Assembly: GCF_011040385.1 (NCBI RefSeq)
Contig: NZ_JAAIKB010000005.1
Coordinates: forward strand, 248,001-312,000
Origin: Falsiroseomonas algicola
GTDB lineage: Bacteria; Pseudomonadota; Alphaproteobacteria; Acetobacterales; Acetobacteraceae
Reading direction: 5' to 3'
Length of the DNA: 64,000 nucleotides
The notes below the pieces were generated by a model. The model was given only the letters and a program-made list of their open reading frames with translations. It searched no databases and was not told the origin of the DNA. This document shows positions 40,488 to 61,151 of this stretch, piece after piece; positions within the stretch are counted from its first letter, which is position 1, and each line of letters begins with the position of its first letter. The translations under genes were made by a program, and so were the position numbers.

Positions 40488-40943
40488 ATGGCACACCTCA
40501 CGCACGGTCCTTTCCTTGTCGCCGAGGACGGGTCGCTCACCCCCCATCGCCAGCCCGCGATGCGCTTCGAATGGCGCGGCCGCGACTGCGAGGCGACCTT
40601 CGATGACGGCCAGGTCAGCCTGACCGTCCAGGCCGGCGCCATCCCCTATACCGCGGAGCGGGCGGAGGTCCGCCCCGGCGCCTTCGCGGCGCTGGGGGAG
40701 CTTGCGCCGGAATTGCCGGAGGGCTGGCGGCTGAAGCTGCTGCCGGACCATCGCGTGAGGCTGGAGGCGGCCCTGCCGCGGCAGGGCGACGTGACGGCGA
40801 CGGCGCTGGTGCGGGCGATGGTGGCCTTCGCCCTCGCGCTCGATCCCTATCTGGACCGGCTAGAATCCGCCGGCCTCGATGCCGGCCGGGCCGCTGGCCT
40901 GGGCGCCGGGGGCGGGGGTGGCGGCGGCAGGGTGAAGACCTGA
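40488..40943 (+). CDS. Unknown protein, 3' overlap with LysM gene
   Basis: 151-residue soluble protein with no family I recognise. Residues 1-130 are regular: HGPFLVAEDGSLTPHRQPAMRFEWRGRDCEATFDDGQVSLTV looks like a small beta-barrel, followed by VRPGAFAALGELAPELPEGW and ATALVRAMVAFALALDPYLDRLE. The last 20 residues (GLGAGGGGGGGRVKT) are low-complexity and are the antisense of the LysM protein's Pro-rich tail, an overlap of 97 bases. It diverges from the psd gene. Confidence 0.7.
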   Translation: MAHLTHGPFLVAEDGSLTPHRQPAMRFEWRGRDCEATFDDGQVSLTVQAGAIPYTAERAEVRPGAFAALGELAPELPEGWRLKLLPDHRVRLEAALPRQGDVTATALVRAMVAFALALDPYLDRLESAGLDAGRAAGLGAGGGGGGGRVKT

Positions 40944-42781
40944 CCCGGCCAGATCATGTTCGGGTTGCGGATCTGGTCGCGGTTGGCTTCGTAGATGATG
41001 GTGTAGAGCACGCCGCGCCCATAGGCCGCGCGCGCCAGGCGCCACAGGCTGTTGCCGGGCTGCACGATGACGCGGCCCTCGGGGATCTCGCCCTGCGGCA
41101 CGCTTTCCCGCTGGAAGGGCAGTTCGACCCGCGCGGAGACCGCGCCATTCGCCGCCAGCTGGTCCACCCGCACGCGGTGCCGGCCGATGGCGGGCGCCGT
41201 CGGGGGCGACAATTCCCAGCGCCCCTGCTCATCCGCCCGCGAATCGCCGGCATGGACGCCGTTGACATAGATGCGCACCGGCGCGCCGGGCGTGGCGCTG
41301 CCGGAGAAGCGGATGCTGCCGGTGTCGTCGTAATCCACCAGATCGAGACCGAGGCCCCGGCGTGCGGGCCCGGTCGGCGTCTGCAGGATGCGCGGCGTGG
41401 CGTTGGGGGCGCCCGGCACCAGCACCACCATCGGCGGCTGCGGCGCCGGCGGCGGCGCGGCCTGGGCGGTCTGGCGGCGCGCAGCCTCCGCGGCGCGCGC
41501 GGCTTCCGCCTGGCGGGCGGCGGCGGCGCGCGCCTCCTCGGCCTGGCGCGCGACCTCCGCCTGGCGGGACTGCTCGGCGCGGCGATTGGCCTCGGCGCGC
41601 GCGGCAGCCTCGGCATCGGCGCGCGCCAGGGTCTGCTGGCGGATCGCGACCTCCGCCGCGCGGGCGGCGGCCTCGGCGGCGCGGGCGGAAACCTCCGCGG
41701 CGCGGGCACTGGCCTCCGCGGCGCGGGAAGCGCTTTCGGCGACGCGCATCGCCGCATCGACGCGGGCATCGGCCTCGGCACGGGCCGCGACTTCGGCACG
41801 GGCGGCCGCGGCCGCGCGTTGAGCGGCCTCCGCGGCACGGGCCTGCGCCTCGGCTTCCTCGCGGGCCTGCGCCTGGAGGCGGGCGGCTTCCTCGGCGGCG
41901 CGCGCTTCGGCGGCCAGGCGGGCGGCCTGTTCGGCGGCGCGGGCCTCGGCCGCGGCGCGTTCCTCTGCCTGCCGGCGCGCGGCGGCCTCGGCGCGGGAAC
42001 GTTCATCGGCCGCGCGGGCCGCCGCGGCGGCCTCGCGCTCCGCTTCCTGGCGCGCCAGCGCCTCGGCCCGGGCGGCGGCTTCGGCGCGCGCGGTGGCCTC
42101 GGCGCGTTGCGCAGCCTCCCGCGCCTCGCGCTCCGCCTGCAGGGCGGCCTGGCGGGCCATCTCCTCCAACCGCGCCAGCGCCGCGGCGCGTTCCTCCGCC
42201 TGGCGGCGGGCCTCGGCCTCGGCGCGGGCGGTCGCCTCGGCGCGTTCCTGCGCCTCGCGCGCCTCGCGCTCCGCCACCACGGCGGGGTCGGGCACGACGA
42301 CGACGACGACGTCGGGACCCGCGATCTCCGCGCCGCCCTGGCGGCCGCGCAGGCTGAACTGGCGGGTGCCCGGGCGCAGCGGGTCGGCGGGCAGGATCAC
42401 CCATTCACCGCGGGCATCGGCACGGGTGCGGCCGATCTCCCGCTCATCCTCCAGCAGCAGCACCTCGGACCCCGGCGCGGCGCGGCCGGCGACCACCACA
42501 TTGCCGCGTGCGCCGACCCGCGCCACGTCGAATCGCGGCGGCTCCAGCGCGGCCACGGCAGGCGGTGACGCGGGGGCGGGCGGGGGCGGGAGGCTGGCCT
42601 GGGGCGGGGGCGCGGGGGTGGCCGGCGGCGGCACCAGGACCGGCCGCGTTTCCGGCGGCGCCGGGGGGCGCGGAGTCGCCACCCGCATCGGCTCCTGCGA
42701 TGCGAACTCGCTGGCGACGTAAGCGGCCAGGCCACCAGCGGCCATGGCCACGATCAACAGGACACGCCCGCTGGGCTTCAT
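40847..42781 (-). CDS. LysM-domain envelope protein with Ala-rich coiled coil
   Basis: 644 residues. Residues 8-26 are a membrane anchor (LLIVAMAAGGLAAYVAS). A Pro-rich stretch and an Ig-like domain (NVVVAGRAAPGSEVLLLED) follow. About residues 165-440 are an Ala/Glu/Arg-rich coiled coil of repeated AEAAARAEA-type units. A second Ig-like domain (GAPVRIYVNGVHAGDSRADEQGRW) and a C-terminal LysM (VIVQPGNSLWRLARAAYGRGVLYTIIYEANRDQIRNPNMI) end it. It probably spans from the inner membrane to peptidoglycan and acts as a periplasmic strut. GC-rich repeats explain the many long spurious frames on both strands. Confidence 0.87.
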   Translation of the reverse strand: MKPSGRVLLIVAMAAGGLAAYVASEFASQEPMRVATPRPPAPPETRPVLVPPPATPAPPPQASLPPPPAPASPPAVAALEPPRFDVARVGARGNVVVAGRAAPGSEVLLLEDEREIGRTRADARGEWVILPADPLRPGTRQFSLRGRQGGAEIAGPDVVVVVVPDPAVVAEREAREAQERAEATARAEAEARRQAEERAAALARLEEMARQAALQAEREAREAAQRAEATARAEAAARAEALARQEAEREAAAAARAADERSRAEAAARRQAEERAAAEARAAEQAARLAAEARAAEEAARLQAQAREEAEAQARAAEAAQRAAAAARAEVAARAEADARVDAAMRVAESASRAAEASARAAEVSARAAEAAARAAEVAIRQQTLARADAEAAARAEANRRAEQSRQAEVARQAEEARAAAARQAEAARAAEAARRQTAQAAPPPAPQPPMVVLVPGAPNATPRILQTPTGPARRGLGLDLVDYDDTGSIRFSGSATPGAPVRIYVNGVHAGDSRADEQGRWELSPPTAPAIGRHRVRVDQLAANGAVSARVELPFQRESVPQGEIPEGRVIVQPGNSLWRLARAAYGRGVLYTIIYEANRDQIRNPNMIWPGQVFTLPPPPPPPAPRPAARPASRPADSSRSR

Positions 42782-42856
42782 GTCTTCGTAACTAGAGCGT
42801 GAAGTCGCGTCGGCACAAGGGCCTATGAGGCGCAACCATCATTTCGCTGCAACTGG

Positions 42857-52891: not shown

Positions 52892-53182
52892 ATGAGCACC
52901 TCACTGCTCCAGCCCGCCAGCCCCGCCGCCGCCGCGACGCCGATCGCGCAGCCGCGCAGCCAGGCGCCGTCCTCGGCGCCCGCGGCGCCGGCCGAATCGG
53001 CGCCGGCCATGCCGAACCCCCGGCTGCGAATCGACCCCGCGCTCAGCCTGGTGGTGATCGAGTTCCGCGACTCGGTGGGAGAGGTGTCGCTGTCCATCCC
53101 GACGCCGAAGGAGCTGGAAGCCTATCGCGACCAGCCCAAGGCGGAGCCGGAGCCCGCGCCGCAGGTCGACGTCTCCCGCTGA
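52892..53182 (+). CDS. FlaG-like small flagellar protein (tentative)
   Basis: 96-residue protein beside the flagellar block. An Ala/Pro-rich N-terminus (LLQPASPAAAATPIAQPRSQ) is followed by the segment NPRLRIDPALSLVVIEFRDS, then VGEVSLSIPTPKELEAYRD, which resembles the C-terminal part of FlaG with its V-x-E-x-x-x-G-E-V pattern. FlaG limits filament length in several bacteria. The resemblance is short and the identification is uncertain. ATG 52892 follows the ribosome site GGAAGATT. Confidence 0.55.
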   Translation: MSTSLLQPASPAAAATPIAQPRSQAPSSAPAAPAESAPAMPNPRLRIDPALSLVVIEFRDSVGEVSLSIPTPKELEAYRDQPKAEPEPAPQVDVSR

Positions 53183-53245: not shown

Positions 53246-54550
53246 TCAGGCGGTAAAGGAAATCCGCCTGGTGGACAGCGTGGCGATGGTGCTGGCGCTG
53301 CTGCCGCCGAACAGCGCCATCACCGCGCCGTTGCCGCTGCTGCTGGTGCCGGCCGACAGCGCCAGGAAGCGCTGCGCCAGCTTCGCCACCTCCCGCGTGT
53401 CCTGCAGCTTCGTGATGTCGAGCCGTTGCGTCAGCAGCGTCTTCTGCTGGTCGAAATCCAGCACGCCGAAGCTCTCCGGCAGGCCGAGCGCGCCGCGCAC
53501 CACCGCGGTCATGGCCTTGTCCTCCATCAGCCCGACGATGGTCGTCACCTTCGACGCGTTGCGCATGAAGTAGAGCGCCTCCCGCAGCCCCGCATTGCCA
53601 TCGCCCATCGCCTTCTCGTAGCGGTTGGTGATGGCGCCGGCGACCACGCGGTCGAGCAGCTTCGGATCGGCGCCGAAGGGGGAGACGGCGCTCGCTTCCG
53701 CCGCCGCCGCGGCTTCCACCGCCTCGTCGCCCGCCCGCGTCGCGCGGCTGAGCGAGGCGAGTTGCGCGGTGCCGAGCGCGGCCACCTGCCGCGTGGTCAG
53801 CGCGCGGGACTGGTCGAAGCTCATCGCCGCCAGCTGCGTGGTGGACAGCGCCGCCACCTGCTCCGTCCCCATCGTCGCGATCTGGGCGGAGGAGAGGGCG
53901 CGGATCTGCGCCGCGCCCCATTGCCGAGCCTCCGCGGGATCGATCACCGCCACCTGCAGCGGCGTCAGCGCCGCGACCTGGCTGGGCCGCAGCGCGGCGA
54001 CCTGCGTCGATCCCAGCGCGCGCACATCCGGCAGGTCGAGCACGGAGATCGCGGCGCTGCCGAGCGCGCGGAGCTGCGTGGTGGACAGCGCCGCCACCTG
54101 GCTGCTGGAGAGCGCCCGCACCTGTTCCGTGCTGAGCCCCGCCACCTGCTTCGCGGTGAGGGACGCGACCTGCATCGTCGTCAGCGCGGCGATCTGCGTC
54201 GTGGTCAGCGCACTCGCTTCCCGCGTCGCGAAGGCGGCGGCGAGTTCGCGCCACCGCCGGTCGGTCAGCTTGTTGGCCAGGCTGCCTTCCGCGGTAGGGT
54301 CCTCGGTCAGGATCTTCCGCAGGATGCCGCGCTTGTCGATCTCCCCTTCCAGCTGGAAGGCTTCCAGCACCACCTGCAGGGTGCGGCGGTCCTTCAGCAG
54401 GGATTCGACATCGCGATGCTTCGAGGCGGCGTCGCGGAAGCGCTCCATCGCCGCCTTGTTGTCGGCGCGCGTCGCGAAGCGCGCTTCGAGGTTGGCGCCT
54501 TCGCGCTGTGCGACGGCGAAGGCCGTCAGCGCGCCAAGGCCGGGCAGCAT
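53246..54550 (-). CDS. DUF1217 flagellar-locus protein with octapeptide insert
   Basis: 434 residues. The outer parts resemble DUF1217: residues 20-110 (ADNKAAMERFRDAASKHRDVE, KRGILRKILTEDPTAEGSLA) and 290-430 (DPKLLDRVVAGAITNRYEKAM, AVRGALGLPESFGVLDFDQQ). Between them, about residues 115-266 are 19 tandem eight-residue units of consensus L-(S/T)-(S/T)-x-Q-(V/I/L)-x-A, an arrangement likely to give a helical or solenoid rod. DUF1217 proteins occur near flagellar genes, exact role unknown. It starts one base after the flaF stop and belongs to its operon. Confidence 0.85.
   Translation of the reverse strand: MLPGLGALTAFAVAQREGANLEARFATRADNKAAMERFRDAASKHRDVESLLKDRRTLQVVLEAFQLEGEIDKRGILRKILTEDPTAEGSLANKLTDRRWRELAAAFATREASALTTTQIAALTTMQVASLTAKQVAGLSTEQVRALSSSQVAALSTTQLRALGSAAISVLDLPDVRALGSTQVAALRPSQVAALTPLQVAVIDPAEARQWGAAQIRALSSAQIATMGTEQVAALSTTQLAAMSFDQSRALTTRQVAALGTAQLASLSRATRAGDEAVEAAAAAEASAVSPFGADPKLLDRVVAGAITNRYEKAMGDGNAGLREALYFMRNASKVTTIVGLMEDKAMTAVVRGALGLPESFGVLDFDQQKTLLTQRLDITKLQDTREVAKLAQRFLALSAGTSSSGNGAVMALFGGSSASTIATLSTRRISFTA
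53753..54208 (-). repeat. 19-unit octapeptide-coding array
   Basis: 456 bases, 19 x 24, coding the eight-residue units in the DUF1217 protein, period exact with no indels. DNA of the units is diverged in third positions, so protein selection rather than recent DNA amplification keeps the period. Units 7, 8 and 12 depart most from consensus. Confidence 0.85.
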
Positions 54551-54551
54551 G

Positions 54552-54959
54552 TCACGCCATGCCCGGAACGAAGTGCAGCACGGTGCCGGGCGCCTTGGCC
54601 GGGGCCGGCGCCGCGGGAAGGGCGCGCTGCGCTTCCAGCGCCTCGATCAGGTCGCGATGCAGCGCCATCAGCGGATCGAGGCTGCCGCCGTCATCCAGCC
54701 GCCGATCCGTCTCCCGCTGCGCCCAGAGGCCGAGGGAGATGAGCTGCCCGCGCAGCGCAGGCGGCAGCTTGTTGCCGGGGGATCCGAGGTCGCTGATCAG
54801 GATCGACCACAGCCGGTGCACCTTCTCCAGCGCCACGGCGCGGGACCTTGTGTCGGTGGCGGCGGCCATCAGCCCGTTGACGTAGCGGAAGGCGCGCAAT
54901 TCGATGTCGCGCGGATGCGCGTGGGCGTTCTGGGTGGCGGCGTAGCGCGCTGCGCTCAT
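54552..54959 (-). CDS. flaF: Flagellar biosynthesis regulator FlaF
   Basis: 135-residue protein with the FlaF pattern: ARYAATQNAHAHPRDIELRAFRYVNGLM, then SRAVALEKVHRLWSILISDLGSP and LPPALRGQLISLGLWAQRE. In Caulobacter-like alphaproteobacteria FlaF is required for flagellin synthesis and opposes FlbT. A ribosome site GGAGGG precedes ATG 54959. It lies downstream of flagellin and just upstream of the DUF1217 gene. Confidence 0.9.
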   Translation of the reverse strand: MSAARYAATQNAHAHPRDIELRAFRYVNGLMAAATDTRSRAVALEKVHRLWSILISDLGSPGNKLPPALRGQLISLGLWAQRETDRRLDDGGSLDPLMALHRDLIEALEAQRALPAAPAPAKAPGTVLHFVPGMA

Positions 54960-55038: not shown

Positions 55039-56229
55039 TCATCGGAACAGGCTGAGCAGCGACTGGCTCTGTTCGTTGGCGATGGAGAGCGACTGCGTCG
55101 CCAGCTGCTGCTTGGTCTGCAGGCTGGTCAGCCGCGCGCTTTCCTCCGCGAGATCCGCATCGACCAGGGCGCCGAGGCCTTCCTTGATCGAGTCGTTCAG
55201 CTGGGTGGTGAAGGTCGTCAGGCCATCCACCTGGCGGATATTGGCGCCGAGGTTCGCGAGCCGCGTGCCCATCAGGTCGATCGCACCCTCGACGAGCGCG
55301 ATCGCCTCATCCTGGCCCGTGCCCGCCGCCGGCGCGGCTTCCACCGTGGCGCCGGTGATGTCGGTGGTGACATCCTCCGAATTGCCGCGGATGTAGAGCT
55401 CACCCTCATTGTTCAGGCCGGCATCGAGGCCCGCTTCCTTCATGCGCGTGATCAGCGCGGTGACGCGCGTCAGCGGGCTGTCCGTCGCCTCGAACTGCAC
55501 GTCGAAGACGCGGACGTTCGGGTCGGGCGTGGTGCCGAGCGCGGCGGAGCCGTCGCTGAACTCGAACACCAGGTCCACGTCTTCCAGCGCCGTCGTCGGG
55601 TCATTGTCCAGGTCGCGCTGCACCGTCACGGTCAGCACTTCGCCATTCGCGGGCGCCAGCGTGTCGTCGAAGGTCACGGTGCGTGCCGCGGAGGTGACGG
55701 ACAGGCCCGTCAGGTCGAGCCCGCCCGAGGTGCTGTCCGTGCCCTGGACCGACGTGACGGAGCCCGAGATGTCGCGGACGATGTCGACGGAGGTGTTGGT
55801 CACCCCTTCCACCGTCAGGCCGTTCACCAGCAGGTTCACGCCGTTGAAGGTGGCGGAGCGCGCGAAGGCGTCGATGTTCTGCAGCGCGTTGGTGATCTGG
55901 TTGTTGATCTGCTCCGCATCCAGGCCCTGCTGCTGGCCCTGCGTCATGGTCTGCTTCAGCCGGCCGAGCTCGTCGGAGATCTGCGTCGCGGCGTCGCGCG
56001 CCACTGTCAGCGCGGACTTGCCGAACTTCAGGCTGTCCTTCACCGCCGTCATGCCGTTGAGGTCGGCGCGCATGTTCTGCGAGATCGCGAACACCGCGGG
56101 ATCGTCATCCGCCTTGCTGATGCGCAGATTCGTCTCGATCCGCTGCTGGGTCTTCCCCATGTCCTTGCCGATATTGTTCAGCGAGCGGATCGCCGCCATG
56201 GCGGCGGCATTGGTGTTGACGGAGGACAT
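55039..56229 (-). CDS. Flagellin
   Basis: 396-residue filament subunit. The N-terminal D0/D1 domain is MSSVNTNAAAMAAIRSLNNI, then QQRIETNLRISKADDDPAVFA, and the C-terminal D1/D0 domain ends ESARLTSLQTKQQLATQSLSIANEQSQSLLSLFR; the centre is a variable surface domain. The start is ATG 56229: the ribosome site GAAGGAG lies nine bases before it, whereas it touches the upstream ATG at 56238. FlbT and FlaF flank it. A CCCGCG-CTT-CGCGGG hairpin at 56340-56354 in the long leader could be a site of post-transcriptional control. Confidence 0.95.
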   Translation of the reverse strand: MSSVNTNAAAMAAIRSLNNIGKDMGKTQQRIETNLRISKADDDPAVFAISQNMRADLNGMTAVKDSLKFGKSALTVARDAATQISDELGRLKQTMTQGQQQGLDAEQINNQITNALQNIDAFARSATFNGVNLLVNGLTVEGVTNTSVDIVRDISGSVTSVQGTDSTSGGLDLTGLSVTSAARTVTFDDTLAPANGEVLTVTVQRDLDNDPTTALEDVDLVFEFSDGSAALGTTPDPNVRVFDVQFEATDSPLTRVTALITRMKEAGLDAGLNNEGELYIRGNSEDVTTDITGATVEAAPAAGTGQDEAIALVEGAIDLMGTRLANLGANIRQVDGLTTFTTQLNDSIKEGLGALVDADLAEESARLTSLQTKQQLATQSLSIANEQSQSLLSLFR

Positions 56230-56422
56230 CGTCCCCATCTCCTTCGACAGGCGTTCCGTGGTCAGGCCGGCCTTTTGCCTCCCTCCTCACGGGGCCGGGC
56301 GCATGGCGTCGCGACGACGCCCCCGCCTCCGGCCGGAGACCCGCGCTTCGCGGGCCTTCTCCCACATCCTGCCATGCCGGGGATGAAGCTTGCGTAAAGC
56401 CCCGTCCGGCACGGCGGGAAAT

Positions 56423-56914
56423 CTAGTCGGCGTGCGGCCGCATCCCCTGCATCTGGGCCTGCGTATGCGCCTGCGCCGCGGCGGCCACGCCCACCATCGG
56501 CATCGGCAGGCCGGTCTGCACATCCAGCCCCAGCACCGTCGCCTCATGCCGCATCACATGCCGCACCAGCCGCAGCGCCTGGTACCACTCATCCTGCTCC
56601 GCCATCGCCAGCGCACGCTCCAGCAGCTGCCGCGCCATCGACGATGTCGTCGCCTCCTGGAACTCCGCCACCAGGCGATGCGCATCCGCCATCGCGGATT
56701 CGCGATCCTCCTCGGGCCCGACATAGGCGCATTGCAGGGCGAAATAGATGCGGCGCGCCGGGGTGTTCGCCGCCTCCGGGGCCATCACCTGCTTGCCGAA
56801 CAGGAAACGCGCCTTGGCAACAAGCTCCACCCGGGTCCGGCTGCGGAACCGCAGCGACGCGCCGTTCACCACCATCAATTCGCCGGCACGCATCTCGAGC
56901 ACCAACGTGGACAT
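56423..56914 (-). CDS. flbT: Flagellin-mRNA repressor FlbT
   Basis: 163-residue protein with the FlbT pattern: LVLEMRAGELMVVNGASLRFRSRTRVELVAKARFLFGKQVM, then PARRIYFALQCAYVG and ALRLVRHVMRHE. FlbT binds flagellin leader mRNA and destabilises it until the hook is complete. It lies just upstream of flagellin. The C-terminal tail is Ala/His/Gln-rich. ATG 56914 starts the family N-terminus; a longer frame to 57160 is spurious. Confidence 0.93.
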   Translation of the reverse strand: MSTLVLEMRAGELMVVNGASLRFRSRTRVELVAKARFLFGKQVMAPEAANTPARRIYFALQCAYVGPEEDRESAMADAHRLVAEFQEATTSSMARQLLERALAMAEQDEWYQALRLVRHVMRHEATVLGLDVQTGLPMPMVGVAAAAQAHTQAQMQGMRPHAD

Positions 56915-57185
56915 GCCACTCTCCCAAGCCTGGCGGCATGGCGGCGGGGGGGTAGAAGCCCGCCATGCCGGGGGGCCGGCGAACGCCGGCCAACGCGAAT
57001 CTTTCGCCACCACACAGCCTGCGCCGCGTGCTCGATCCTTCGAGGGCGCGTCGCGCGTCCCGGCACGGGGGCCGGGGACGCACGTCGCAGACGCATCATC
57101 ACCCATCCGGCTTAACCAGGGTTGAAGGCGGCGCCCCCGATCCATCGCGTCATCCCTCATGCCATGTCTCCTGCCCCATCCCGCC

Positions 57186-58226
57186 TCAGCCCAGCATCGA
57201 CGCGAGCGAGAGGCGGGAGACCATCGTCGTCACGGTGTAGGAAGCCTCCAGCCGTTCCTTCACCTGCGCCAGCTCGGCGGAGACCTGCGCCAGGTCCACC
57301 TCCGCCACGTCGCCCAACTGCGTGCGCAGCGCCACCACCAGGTCCGCATGGCGTTCCCGCGCGGCATCGATGCGGGAGGCGGCAGAGCCGAGCTTGCCCT
57401 GTTCCGCCGCCAGCCCATCCGTGGCGCCATCCAGCATGGCGGTCGCGCCTTCCAGCAGGTCATCCCAGCCATCGCCCGCCTGGAACTGCGCCTGGGTGAC
57501 GGAAGCCAGCACCGCCAGCCCGCGCAGCAGCTCCCGCCCCCAGGATTCCGTCACCTCATCCGCGCTGTCGCGGTTGGCGAAGACGCCGATCGACACGCGC
57601 TCCCCATCCGCCACCTGCAGCGCGCGCCGCGCCTCCGTGGTGCCGTCGCCTTCCAGGAAGTCAGAGAAAGGGGTGGTCGCCGGGTCGGTCGCGATCGCCT
57701 GCGTATCGGCCAGCACCGTCGCGGCATTGGTCGGGTCCAGCGTGGCGACGGAAGCGGCGATGGCGGTCGCCATCGGCCCGGTCGCGATGTTCACGGCATC
57801 CGGCACCGGCGGGTTGGTCACGTCCGACCCGCCGAACAGGTATTCATTGCCGTGCTTCGTGTTCAGCAGCGCCGCCGCCTCCTCAAGCGCCGCGCGGGCG
57901 ATGTCGGCCAGCGATTCGACGGAGACCGAGCCGAGCGTGCGCGCCCGCAGGGCTTCGGAGGCCACGTTGCTCGACAGCTGGTGCAGCCGGTTCAGCACGG
58001 TCTGGGTGGCATCGGTGCGCGCGAGCGCGCGGTCGGCGGCCTCCGTGAAGACCTCCCGCTTCGCGATCTCCACCTTGAGGTCGATGGCGCGCCGCGCATC
58101 GAGCCCGAGGTCGCCATGCACCACCCCCCGCTGGCCCGTGCTGACCTGGCGGGAGATCACGTCCATCCGGGCCCGCATGGAGGCCTGTTCCAGCGCCATG
58201 CCGCCGATCATGGAGATGGTCGACAT
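57186..58226 (-). CDS. flgL: Flagellar hook-associated protein FlgL
   Basis: 346-residue junction protein between hook and filament (HAP3). The helical ends are conserved: ALEQASMRARMDVISRQVSTGQRG at the N-terminus and LAQVSAELAQVKERLEASYTVTTMVSRLSLASML at the C-terminus, with NTKHGNEYLFGGSDV in the core. It starts two bases after the flgK stop, so the operon is flgE-flgK-flgL. The 271-base gap to flbT holds no gene I can support. Confidence 0.93.
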   Translation of the reverse strand: MSTISMIGGMALEQASMRARMDVISRQVSTGQRGVVHGDLGLDARRAIDLKVEIAKREVFTEAADRALARTDATQTVLNRLHQLSSNVASEALRARTLGSVSVESLADIARAALEEAAALLNTKHGNEYLFGGSDVTNPPVPDAVNIATGPMATAIAASVATLDPTNAATVLADTQAIATDPATTPFSDFLEGDGTTEARRALQVADGERVSIGVFANRDSADEVTESWGRELLRGLAVLASVTQAQFQAGDGWDDLLEGATAMLDGATDGLAAEQGKLGSAASRIDAARERHADLVVALRTQLGDVAEVDLAQVSAELAQVKERLEASYTVTTMVSRLSLASMLG

Positions 58227-58228
58227 GA

Positions 58229-59758
58229 TCAGCGCACCGCGCCGAACAGCGCGTCCCACATCGCCTGGATGGTGGAGATCACGCGCGCATTCACGCCATA
58301 GGCCGTCTGCAGCTGCACCATCGCTGCCACCTCCTTGTCCACATCGACGCCGGACCGTTCCTGCAGGCGCGATCCCAGCACGTCCCGCAGCCCCTCCGCC
58401 CGTTCCTTCGTGGCCGTGGCGGCGGCGCGCGTGCCGGCCTGCTCCGCCACCAGCGCGCTGCCGTATTCCTCCAGCGTCCGCAGCCCGCTGAGGGGCGAGG
58501 AAAGCGTGCCATCCGGGCCGAGCCCGCCGGTCGCGAAGCCTGGCTGCGCGACGCCGGCCGCCAGTTCGGCGCCGAAGCTGAAATCCAGCAGCCGGTCGAG
58601 CAGGGTGGAGAAGCCGGCCGGCCCGGTCGCCGTGTTCGGCGTGAAGGCGGTGGGCCCGCCCGGCGCCGCCGCCACCGCATGGGTGCCGTCGCGCACCAGC
58701 GACGGGTCCGCCACCACATCCGGGTTCACGCGGATGGCGCCGGCGAAGCCCACCATGGCGCTGCCGGCATAGGGCTGCGTCACATCCGGCACCGTGCCGG
58801 CATCGTCGGTGAAGAGCCGGAGGCCCTGCGCCTCCATGCGGTAGGCGAGCTGGGAGGCCGCGACATCGGCCTCCGCCTGCATGCGCGGCAGCGTCGCGTC
58901 CCGCAGTTCCGCCGCCGCACCCAGCCGCCCGCCGGCCAGGCGCCGCGTCACGTCGATGCCGTCCAGCATCACGCCGGGCAGCGTGCCGCCATTGCCGTGC
59001 CAGGCGCCGGAGCCGACGGTCGCATCGTCCAGCGAGAAGGGCTGGCTCCCTTCATCGAGCGGCAGCGTGATGCCGCCGCGGGCGATCAGCGTCACCTCCC
59101 CGGTCGAACGCCGGATGACGGTGATGTCGATGCTCTCCGCCACCGCGCCGATCAGCCCGTCGCGCTGGTCCTCCAGCTCCGCCGTGCTGCGCGCGGCCGC
59201 GGCTTCCTGCCGGATCGCCTCGTTCAGGCCGGCGATGGCGGAGAGGTTGGCATTCAGCGACGCCACCTCCGTCCGCATCGCGTCCTGCGCCTGCTGCCGC
59301 GCCTCCCCGATCGCGGCGGAGACGCCGTTGAGCCGCGCGGCCAGGTCCTCCGCCGCGCTCACCACATCGCCGCGCCGGATCGCATCCGCCGGCGCCTCCC
59401 GCAGCGCCACGATCGCGTCGCGCAGCCCGCCCATCAGCCCGCCGATGCTGTCGCCATTCTCGGGCGATCCATGCGCGGCCTCCACGCCGCGCAGCAGATC
59501 CTCCCGCAGCGCGCCGGCCGCCACGTTGCCCTTCGCGCGGTCCTGCGCCGCGATCAGCGCCAGGTCCACGTCGCGTGCCGCCGGCTGGCTCTTCACGCCG
59601 ATGCCGGTGCCGGCCGCCGTCATGGTGGTGCCTTCCAGCACCTTGCGCGTATGCCCCGCGACACCCGCATTCGCGATGTCGTTGGAGGCGCGCGCCATCT
59701 GCTTCTCGAGCAGCCGGAGCCCGCTGCGCGCGACGGTGAAGGCGAGGTCAAGGCCCAT
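58229..59758 (-). CDS. flgK: Flagellar hook-associated protein FlgK
   Basis: 509-residue HAP1. The N-terminal domain GLDLAFTVARSGLRLLEKQMARASNDIANAGVAGHTRKVLE and C-terminal VDVDKEVAAMVQLQTAYGVNARVISTIQAMWDALF are conserved. The central region has the FlgK core segments LNDQRDGLIGAVAESIDI and a predicted surface domain. Start at 59758 has 25 bases to the flgE stop. It lies between flgE and flgL in a hook-assembly operon. Confidence 0.95.
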   Translation of the reverse strand: MGLDLAFTVARSGLRLLEKQMARASNDIANAGVAGHTRKVLEGTTMTAAGTGIGVKSQPAARDVDLALIAAQDRAKGNVAAGALREDLLRGVEAAHGSPENGDSIGGLMGGLRDAIVALREAPADAIRRGDVVSAAEDLAARLNGVSAAIGEARQQAQDAMRTEVASLNANLSAIAGLNEAIRQEAAAARSTAELEDQRDGLIGAVAESIDITVIRRSTGEVTLIARGGITLPLDEGSQPFSLDDATVGSGAWHGNGGTLPGVMLDGIDVTRRLAGGRLGAAAELRDATLPRMQAEADVAASQLAYRMEAQGLRLFTDDAGTVPDVTQPYAGSAMVGFAGAIRVNPDVVADPSLVRDGTHAVAAAPGGPTAFTPNTATGPAGFSTLLDRLLDFSFGAELAAGVAQPGFATGGLGPDGTLSSPLSGLRTLEEYGSALVAEQAGTRAAATATKERAEGLRDVLGSRLQERSGVDVDKEVAAMVQLQTAYGVNARVISTIQAMWDALFGAVR

Positions 59759-59783: not shown

Positions 59784-61151
59784 TCAGCGCTTCATGTTGA
59801 TGGTGTCCTGCAGCATCTCGTCGCTCGCGGTCACGATGCGCGTGTTGGAGGTGTAGGCGCGCTGCGCCAGGATGAGCTTCGAGAACTCGGCGGCGATATC
59901 CACGTTCGACCGCTCCACCGACCCGGTGACGAGCTTGCCGACCCCGTTGGTGGAGGCATCGGTCACGCGCGCCTCCCCGCTTTCCACCGTGCGCAGGAAG
60001 GCCTGGCCGTCCAGGCGCTGCAGCTTGTCGGGATCGTTGAAGGCCACGACCGGCACGCGCGCCACGATGCGCGTCTGGCCATTGTCGTAGTTCACCGCGA
60101 CGTCGCCATTCTCCCGCACCGTCACGCCGGAATAGGAACCGAGCGGCACGCCATCCTGCGACAGGTCGCGCACCGTGTATTCGGTGCCGGCATACATGGT
60201 CAGGCCCGTCGGCACGCCGAAGCCGCCGAGATTGATCTGCACGTCCTGGTTCCCGTAGCCGTAGTCGACGCTGAAGCCGAGGAAGGCGTTGTCGCCCGCC
60301 TCCGCCGGCGCGGGCGTCGTGCCCGTGGCGTTGGCGATGGTGGTGATGGAGGAGATGGTGCCGGGCGCCGCCGTCACCACCGGCGGGCCGGCGGCGATCT
60401 GGCCGCCGAACTGCACATCGACGAAGCGGCCGGCCGCGGGGTTCAGCGTGTCGTTCTCCGGCGTGATGCGCAGCCGCCAGGTGTCGGTATCCAGCCGCCA
60501 CCAGTCGAGCGTCACCTGCTGCTGGTTGCCGAGCGCGTCATAGATCTGGATCACGCTGCTGACGGGATCCTCCACCGGCGCCCAGGGCGCCGCGGCGGGG
60601 ATCGCGGCCACCGCATCCACGTTGCTCGGCAGGTTGGCCGCGAGGTTGATCTCCCCGGTCGGGACGGGGTTGTAGACCAGCTCGGAGACGCGGATCGGTG
60701 CCAGCGTGGTGCGGTCCGGCTCCCCGGTCGCCAGCATCTTCCAGCCTTCGAGGTAGTAGCCGCTGCCATTCACCATGTAGCCGTCGCGGTCCATGGCGAA
60801 GTCGCCGGCGCGGGTGAACATCTGCCGGTCGTCGAAGATCACGTCGGCGCCCGAGCCCCCGCGCGACTGCGCGACGGAGAAGAAGCCCTGGCCGGCGATC
60901 GCCATGGCCAGCGGGTTCTCCACCTGCTCGATCGTGCCCTGCACCGTATTGGTGTAGTCCGGCCGCGCCTCCACCGAGCCCGGCATGTTCAGCCGCAGGT
61001 TCGACCGTGTCAGCCAGTTGGTGAAGTTGGTGTCGGTGCGCTTGAAGCCGACCGTCTGGCTGTTGGCCACGTTGTCGGAGACATGGCCCAGCGCGCGGGC
61101 CTGCGCCGCAAGCCCGCTGATCGCGGTGGTCATCGAGCCGAGCAGCGACAT
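59784..61151 (-). CDS. flgE: Flagellar hook protein FlgE
   Basis: 455-residue hook subunit. MSLLGSMTTAISGLAAQARALGHVSDNVANSQTVGFKRTDTNF and FAIAGQGFFSVAQ-type motifs mark the N-terminus, and NVDIAAEFSKLILAQRAYTSNTRIVTASDEMLQDTINM the C-terminus, both D0/D1 rod-type coiled segments; the centre is beta-rich. It heads the minus-strand operon at a 209-base divergent region shared with fliK. Confidence 0.95.
   Translation of the reverse strand: MSLLGSMTTAISGLAAQARALGHVSDNVANSQTVGFKRTDTNFTNWLTRSNLRLNMPGSVEARPDYTNTVQGTIEQVENPLAMAIAGQGFFSVAQSRGGSGADVIFDDRQMFTRAGDFAMDRDGYMVNGSGYYLEGWKMLATGEPDRTTLAPIRVSELVYNPVPTGEINLAANLPSNVDAVAAIPAAAPWAPVEDPVSSVIQIYDALGNQQQVTLDWWRLDTDTWRLRITPENDTLNPAAGRFVDVQFGGQIAAGPPVVTAAPGTISSITTIANATGTTPAPAEAGDNAFLGFSVDYGYGNQDVQINLGGFGVPTGLTMYAGTEYTVRDLSQDGVPLGSYSGVTVRENGDVAVNYDNGQTRIVARVPVVAFNDPDKLQRLDGQAFLRTVESGEARVTDASTNGVGKLVTGSVERSNVDIAAEFSKLILAQRAYTSNTRIVTASDEMLQDTINMKR

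Follow-up and report, generated by a model that had tools for sequence, protein, structure and literature searches.

The DUF1217 protein encoded at the end of a flagellar gene row of Falsiroseomonas algicola (Acetobacteraceae) carries, at the junction of its two halves, 19 consecutive ALTTAQ octapeptides, and the number of these units is constant in all the insert-bearing orthologues compared. The gene (53246..54550, minus strand; 434 aa) lies in the 64,000-nucleotide stretch analysed here, called the window (RefSeq assembly GCF_011040385.1, contig NZ_JAAIKB010000005.1, positions 248,001 to 312,000), and coordinates are those of the window unless a locus is named. The octad repeat and the DUF1217 domain are both catalogued families already, and it looks as if what is new is their combination in a flagellar protein. 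We consider that the explanation with the best prospects, which as a whole has about an even chance of being right, is a surface decoration of fixed length, serving as a stalk or binding surface, on a probably exported flagellar protein.

The window protein matches Pfam DUF1217 (PF06748) in two stretches (1.3e-38, 132.9 bits, cut-off 22.9), in agreement with the host assigned by the first-pass annotation, and ALTTAQ_rpt (PF20080) in six (5.3e-31, 106.4 bits, cut-off 26.4). Its N-terminal half (residues 1-110; 54221..54550, minus strand) aligns with insert-free orthologues up to the insertion point. The octads follow at residues 115-266 (53753..54208, minus strand), delimited by the repeat analysis, Pfam, AlphaFold2 and a gap-free alignment, and then an Ala-rich linker of variable length (residues 267-293; 53672..53752, minus strand), where model confidence is low and alignment gaps occur. 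The C-terminal half spans residues 294-400 (53351..53671, minus strand), with the best Pfam stretch at 294-388. When the two halves were compared with each other, the duplication score was reached by 65 of 300 shuffles for the window protein, and by 87, 4 and 0 of 300 for the proteins of loci L083, L088 and L093, respectively.

The octad segment corresponds exactly to 152 residues, i.e. 19 units of eight, with zero indels between units. L occupies position 1 in 15 of the 19 units (M in two, I and W in one each); position 5 is Q in 16, position 6 is V, I or L in 17 and position 8 is A in 12. The self-identity of the insert at a lag of eight residues is 0.40, against 0.110 for shuffled sequences (sd 0.025, maximum 0.208; 10,000 shuffles), and it stays high at lags of 16, 24 and 32 (0.38, 0.31 and 0.37), the remaining lags between 2 and 31 giving 0.12 or less. 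The insert thus has the tandem eight-residue period that ALTTAQ_rpt requires, and translation and lag-8 periodicity bear out the single register of 19 units initially described. However, the repeat had also been called exact, which is correct for the register and not for the sequence: pairwise DNA identity between units averages 0.55, and units 7, 8 and 12 (LGSAAISV, LDLPDVRA and IDPAEARQ) depart from the consensus.

AlphaFold2 was run on the full-length window protein with an alignment of 22 sequences (this protein and 21 relatives) and on its insert alone with an alignment of 11 (the window and ten orthologues). The full-length model of the window protein has a mean pLDDT of 84.1, with block means between 87 and 95 for residues 111-270 and of 56 and 53 for the linker residues 271-290. 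The insert alone is modelled with a pLDDT of 95.3 and a pTM of 0.86 as 19 helices, one per octad, with no strand; these helices are 4-6 residues long and broken at each unit, the last one having 11 residues, and the full-length model shows the same short-helix pattern. These models predict that the octad insert folds compactly into an alpha-solenoid whose helices are very short. A regular solenoid, as the first-pass annotation had proposed, is therefore found in both models in its alpha form, whereas the beta-helical rod suggested along with it is contradicted by the presence of short helices only. The models also speak against a coiled coil, for which a continuous helix with a heptad or 11-residue period would be expected in place of a period of eight with helices broken per unit, and against a beta-helix or beta solenoid, which would have strands in each repeat. 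Disorder, one of the outcomes initially named as refuting the proposal, is excluded at the level of prediction by the pLDDT of the insert.

Among solved chains, the only strong sequence relative of the octads is PDB 9zem (profile E 5.5e-30 over 113 residues), a molecule named HeliScrew4, and this name suggests a designed protein; leucine-rich-repeat chains rank next by profile, with E values of 0.00056 and worse. HeliScrew4 is itself a separate chain of 120 residues, whereas the octads of the window are inserted in a flagellar domain. With a named Pfam repeat and a strong solved relative, the novelty of the octads is lower than the first-pass annotation implied. 9zem was absent among the best 50 Foldseek matches of either model, and no solved structure matched the insert at E ≤0.001. 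The nearest fold is that of mesothelin (E 1.3e-3, probability 1.00, TM 0.46 by query length); we rejected membership of the mesothelin family (PF06060), since the Pfam score of 11.7 bits lies below the cut-off of 25.8 and the fold match misses an E of 0.001. The DUF1217 halves match PDB 2o8s (AGR_C_984 of Agrobacterium) with a profile E of 5.2e-42 and a Foldseek E of 3.3e-05 (TM 0.75 by target length), residues 307-422 of the window protein aligning to residues 181-296 of 2o8s. Both halves are common to the window protein, Pfam DUF1217 and 2o8s, but 2o8s is without octads, and its matched halves stop at residue 170 and resume at 181. A literature search with most subscription papers outside its reach found no paper on HeliScrew, ALTTAQ, PF20080 or PF06748, nor on an octapeptide alpha-solenoid repeat protein.

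The spacing between the DUF1217 halves was surveyed in 111 open frames, one per locus, and counted in 110 of them, L153 being left out because the edge of the stretch cuts its frame. The survey includes 60 additional family loci, hand-picked with one or few per genus and a preference for long open frames, among the matches listed in a search in which 220 of 299 family genomes matched. The halves are 10-23 residues apart in 85 of the 110 frames and more than 100 residues apart in 25, in a set that is not a random sample, so that 25/110 is not a frequency. Fifteen of the long inserts are octad rows, with a spacing of 181-189 residues and all in the window's genus; some species occur twice in the survey, and these rows represent 11 distinct proteins, including that of the window.

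The ten remaining long inserts fall into three sets when compared with each other by BLAST. The first is defined by a domain common to five frames of genus g17 and to L169 (g77), present in one copy in four frames (132 residues), in two copies in L137 (229 residues) and in three in L169 (321 residues). The second is a segment of 347-352 residues common to L158, L159 and L166 (genera g57 and g72), and the third consists of the 324-residue insert of L176 (g86), with a weak match to the hook-protein domain FlgE_D2 (27.1 bits, cut-off 22.7). FlgE_D2 is also found in two loci of genus g43, in three stretches in L196 (69.5 bits; halves at 34-131 and 888-988) and in one stretch in L197 (42.6 bits; halves at 27-123 and 457-556). 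In L176, L196 and L197, all from other Acetobacteraceae, the insert occupies the same site as the octads of the window but is a hook-type domain, in one stretch in L176 and L197 and in three in L196. Beyond the family, three loci from other families of the class were informative: in L191 the two halves are separated by a domain of the g17 type, while FlgE_D2 (32.2 bits) in L192 and FlgE/F/G D1 (39.6 bits, cut-off 27) in L195 precede the C-terminal half, on contigs that end before any N-terminal half. These comparisons show, at the level of sequence, that the junction of the DUF1217 halves is an insertion slot that takes unrelated inserts. Inserts of unrelated sequence in orthologues had been put forward as an argument against the octads; within the genus the insert-bearing orthologues carry homologous octads, whereas outside this set some orthologues have no insert and certain more distant DUF1217 proteins have unrelated inserts at the same site.

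Other features of the family were observed during the survey. The g17-type domain is uncatalogued, measures about 100 residues and has a recurring FSG-FGG-like motif. It lies between the halves in L119, L121, L136, L137, L138, L169 and L191, as a single copy or as two or three in tandem; a Pfam scan of L119, L137, L169 and L191 gave no match over cut-off besides DUF1217. Moreover, a 625-residue DUF1217 frame (L193:202-2076) has the pattern of the N-terminal half several times in tandem, with five Pfam stretches. DUF1217 was found in 40 of 337 genomes of the class and gave no match in 14 control genomes, where Caulobacter flaY had been the lead.

The DUF1217 gene is the last of a row on the minus strand in the order flgE-flgK-flgL-flbT-flagellin-flaF-DUF1217. 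The row starts with the hook protein gene flgE (59784..61136; Flg_bb_rod, FlgE/F/G D1, FlgE_D2 and Flg_bbr_C), whose start codon was chosen by hand within a longer open frame, and continues with flgK (58229..59758; FlgK_D1, 7.2e-30). The next gene (57186..58259; Flagellin_C, 3.9e-07; Flagellin_N at 20.2 bits, below the cut-off of 26.6) would encode a FlgL-like hook-filament junction protein, a name inferred from position and size. It is followed by flbT (56423..57160; FlbT, 5e-29), flagellin (55039..56238; Flagellin_N and Flagellin_C) and flaF (54552..54959; FlaF, 3.6e-20), whose stop codon is separated from the start of the DUF1217 gene by a single base. The location directly after flagellin and flaF, already noticed in the first reading, is thus correct. 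We then compared a named set of 21 loci, 10 with octads and 11 without, from records titled Falsiroseomonas or Roseomonas, Elioraea, Caldovatus, Acetobacteraceae MAGs and one Sneathiella. The order flagellin-flaF-DUF1217 is found in 20 of them, the exception being the Sneathiella locus L093, and these loci, together with the Pfam matches of the window neighbours, place the DUF1217 protein in a flagellar gene neighbourhood.

Elsewhere in the genome of the window lies another DUF1217 gene that lacks octads (L013:6196-6969), next to another flagellin-like gene and to genes that look flhF- and flhA-like by eye. Downstream of the row in the window, a small convergent frame (52892-53182, plus strand) looks FlaG-like by eye and has no Pfam match at 0.001. 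Further away, a 662-aa frame (40847-42835, minus strand) has a long Ala/Glu/Arg-rich stretch with many DNA repeats and a C-terminus that is LysM-like by eye.

A table in a paper on Brucella gives the function of the DUF1217 protein as 'unknown' and its localisation as 'Unknown', and lists FlaF and FlbT as regulators (PMC7410920); a further paper labels DUF1217 'similar to FlgF'. With its neighbours flaF and flbT listed as regulators, a cytosolic role for DUF1217 is conceivable, and it is the main rival to the explanation that we favour: the protein would act with FlaF and FlbT in the cell as an assembly factor, the octad solenoid being a scaffold for flagellin or export components. Alpha-solenoids are often binding scaffolds, and the position of the gene directly after flaF in 20 of the 21 named loci also favours such a role. 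However, a cytosolic factor hardly explains why FlgE_D2 and FlgE/F/G D1 are inserted in or fused to DUF1217 elsewhere, and we regard it as rather unlikely, although deserving serious attention. These same domains, found by sequence in some DUF1217 proteins, lead us to infer that DUF1217 is exported by the flagellar apparatus. Because the slot takes domains including a kind typical of the exported hook protein, it would face outwards.

The DUF1217 protein was detected in all 15 genomes of the genus that were searched. Octads are present in 11 of them and replaced by a short linker in four (G001, G002, G005 and G008), which indicates that the insert is dispensable for the persistence of the gene row. 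When the window insert was aligned with those of ten orthologues, which are down to 35% identical to it, the 152 octad columns contained 0 gaps in all 11 rows, and the gaps between the halves are confined to the linker. The variable unit number that the first-pass annotation expected in close relatives is therefore not observed. The order of the units was compared with 5,000 permutations: the observed order was never reached in seven of the ten orthologues, but it was reached by 9 and 17 permutations in two others, and by 1,181 in L081. Judged from these permutations, the units are orthologous one by one in nine of the ten orthologues. Since adjacent units have diverged at the DNA level (8-18 of 24 bases identical between neighbours) and are collinear in these nine orthologues, the array is old, and a recent tandem expansion of the DNA was rejected.

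Selection on the octad protein sequence is supported by a low dN/dS, estimated by simple counting: the four closest species, compared in six pairs, give 0.25-0.45. A second species group, also compared in six pairs, has octads that evolve faster than the halves (0.36-0.71 against 0.15-0.49), and octad dN/dS is below 1 in all 12 pairs. Selection had initially been deduced from variation at third codon positions; the deduction survives on the orthologue data, but that argument is weak by itself because units differ more from each other at first positions (mean identity 0.47) than at third ones (0.55; 0.64 at second positions). On the best tree of the DUF1217 halves the insert requires two changes, one change being sufficient in only 2% of bootstrap trees; a single origin is compatible with the well-supported branches of this tree. 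The two alignments used, A1 (15 rows) and A2 (22 rows), apparently overlap in most of their species and do not provide independent evidence. In a class-wide search with 33 of 289 genomes matching, a match through both halves and the octads was found only in the window's own genome, and beyond the genus the search for octads in DUF1217 proteins covered the examined loci only.

The octad sequence and period of the insert are those of PF20080, and ALTTAQ matches occur in 49 of the 299 family genomes. The same genome encodes a giant ALTTAQ protein of 1146 aa (L009:7262-10702, G000:C55; 485.8 bits in 24 Pfam stretches), about 39 kb away and about 29 kb past the end of the window. This protein is a near-pure octad array, whereas that of the window has a constant 19-unit array within a flagellar domain. 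Such common arrays, the giant protein in the same genome and the viability of some orthologues without the insert would fit a neutral passenger, i.e. an ALTTAQ array captured at a permissive loop and functionless. This is an improbable explanation for an insert with zero indels across 11 rows, with units collinear in nine of ten orthologues and with dN/dS below 1 in every pair. In addition, the giant array and its counterparts in three related genomes, all of them among those compared here, differ by internal gap runs of 1-35 residues, some of 8, 24 and 32; these runs come from whole open frames rather than start-codon-trimmed proteins, and the array is about 7.5 times longer than the insert with repeats that align uncertainly. 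The contrast in indels with the four closest inserts alone is consequently modest, and more weight lies on the absence of indels across the full set of 11 rows.

Two contigs of the assembly end inside ALTTAQ arrays (start of L010, G000:C8:1-849; end of L012, G000:C10:73237-73617), and it is therefore probable that the assembly is also interrupted at other repeat genes. A mobile-element origin of the octads was considered and rejected, as plasmid and phage matches indicate no donor: the 58 plasmid records are all below 60% identity, some bearing the labels 'heme utilization protein', 'large exoprotein involved in heme utilization or adhesion' or 'ICE nucleation protein' (labels only), and the four phage records, two of them from the same phage, are weak (28-31% identity).

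A molecular ruler, one of the roles proposed in the first reading, in which the octad number would set a measured length, might be suggested by the regular model and the adjoining hook and filament genes, but it is very improbable, because the constant unit number, which disfavours any variable-number ruler, and the absence of the insert in relatives leave no length variation to correlate with it, and we know of no ruler partner. A fixed length suits a spacer or stalk better.

We therefore return to the fixed-length decoration, a reading of the solenoid that follows from taking the slot as outward-facing on an exported DUF1217 protein. In the proposed mechanism, the junction of the halves would be an outward slot on the surface of a flagellar subunit that is exported and axial or cap-like, used for hook-type FlgE_D2 in some other lineages and, in the window's genus, for the 19-unit ALTTAQ array. 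Stacking of the short helices, one per octad in the models, would give a rigid alpha-solenoid with a fixed length. This rod could be a stalk or side decoration that keeps a repeated polar face, formed by the S/T-S/T-x-Q turns, at a defined spacing from the core of the flagellum; the polar face would be a putative site for partner binding or for packing on neighbours. More tentatively, and with somewhat less confidence than we place in the decoration itself, DUF1217 proteins may form a hitherto undescribed class of flagellar subunits that are exported and have a single surface slot for exchangeable domains, which would be swapped by lineage (hook D2, the uncatalogued domain, the 19-helix octad screw) like the variable outer domains of flagellin and hook protein.

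DUF1217 is part of the flagellar row of the named relatives examined, and has no assigned function in the papers found. A slot occupied by hook domains in certain lineages and by a constant octad solenoid in the window's genus points to a testable role, that of an exported, decorated flagellar subunit. Moreover, the ALTTAQ repeat is now seen in a defined context with countable and constant units, where its structure and role should be easier to test than in giant arrays. If DUF1217 proteins do form the class of subunits proposed more tentatively above, the flagella of the window's genus would bear helical octad rods of constant length.
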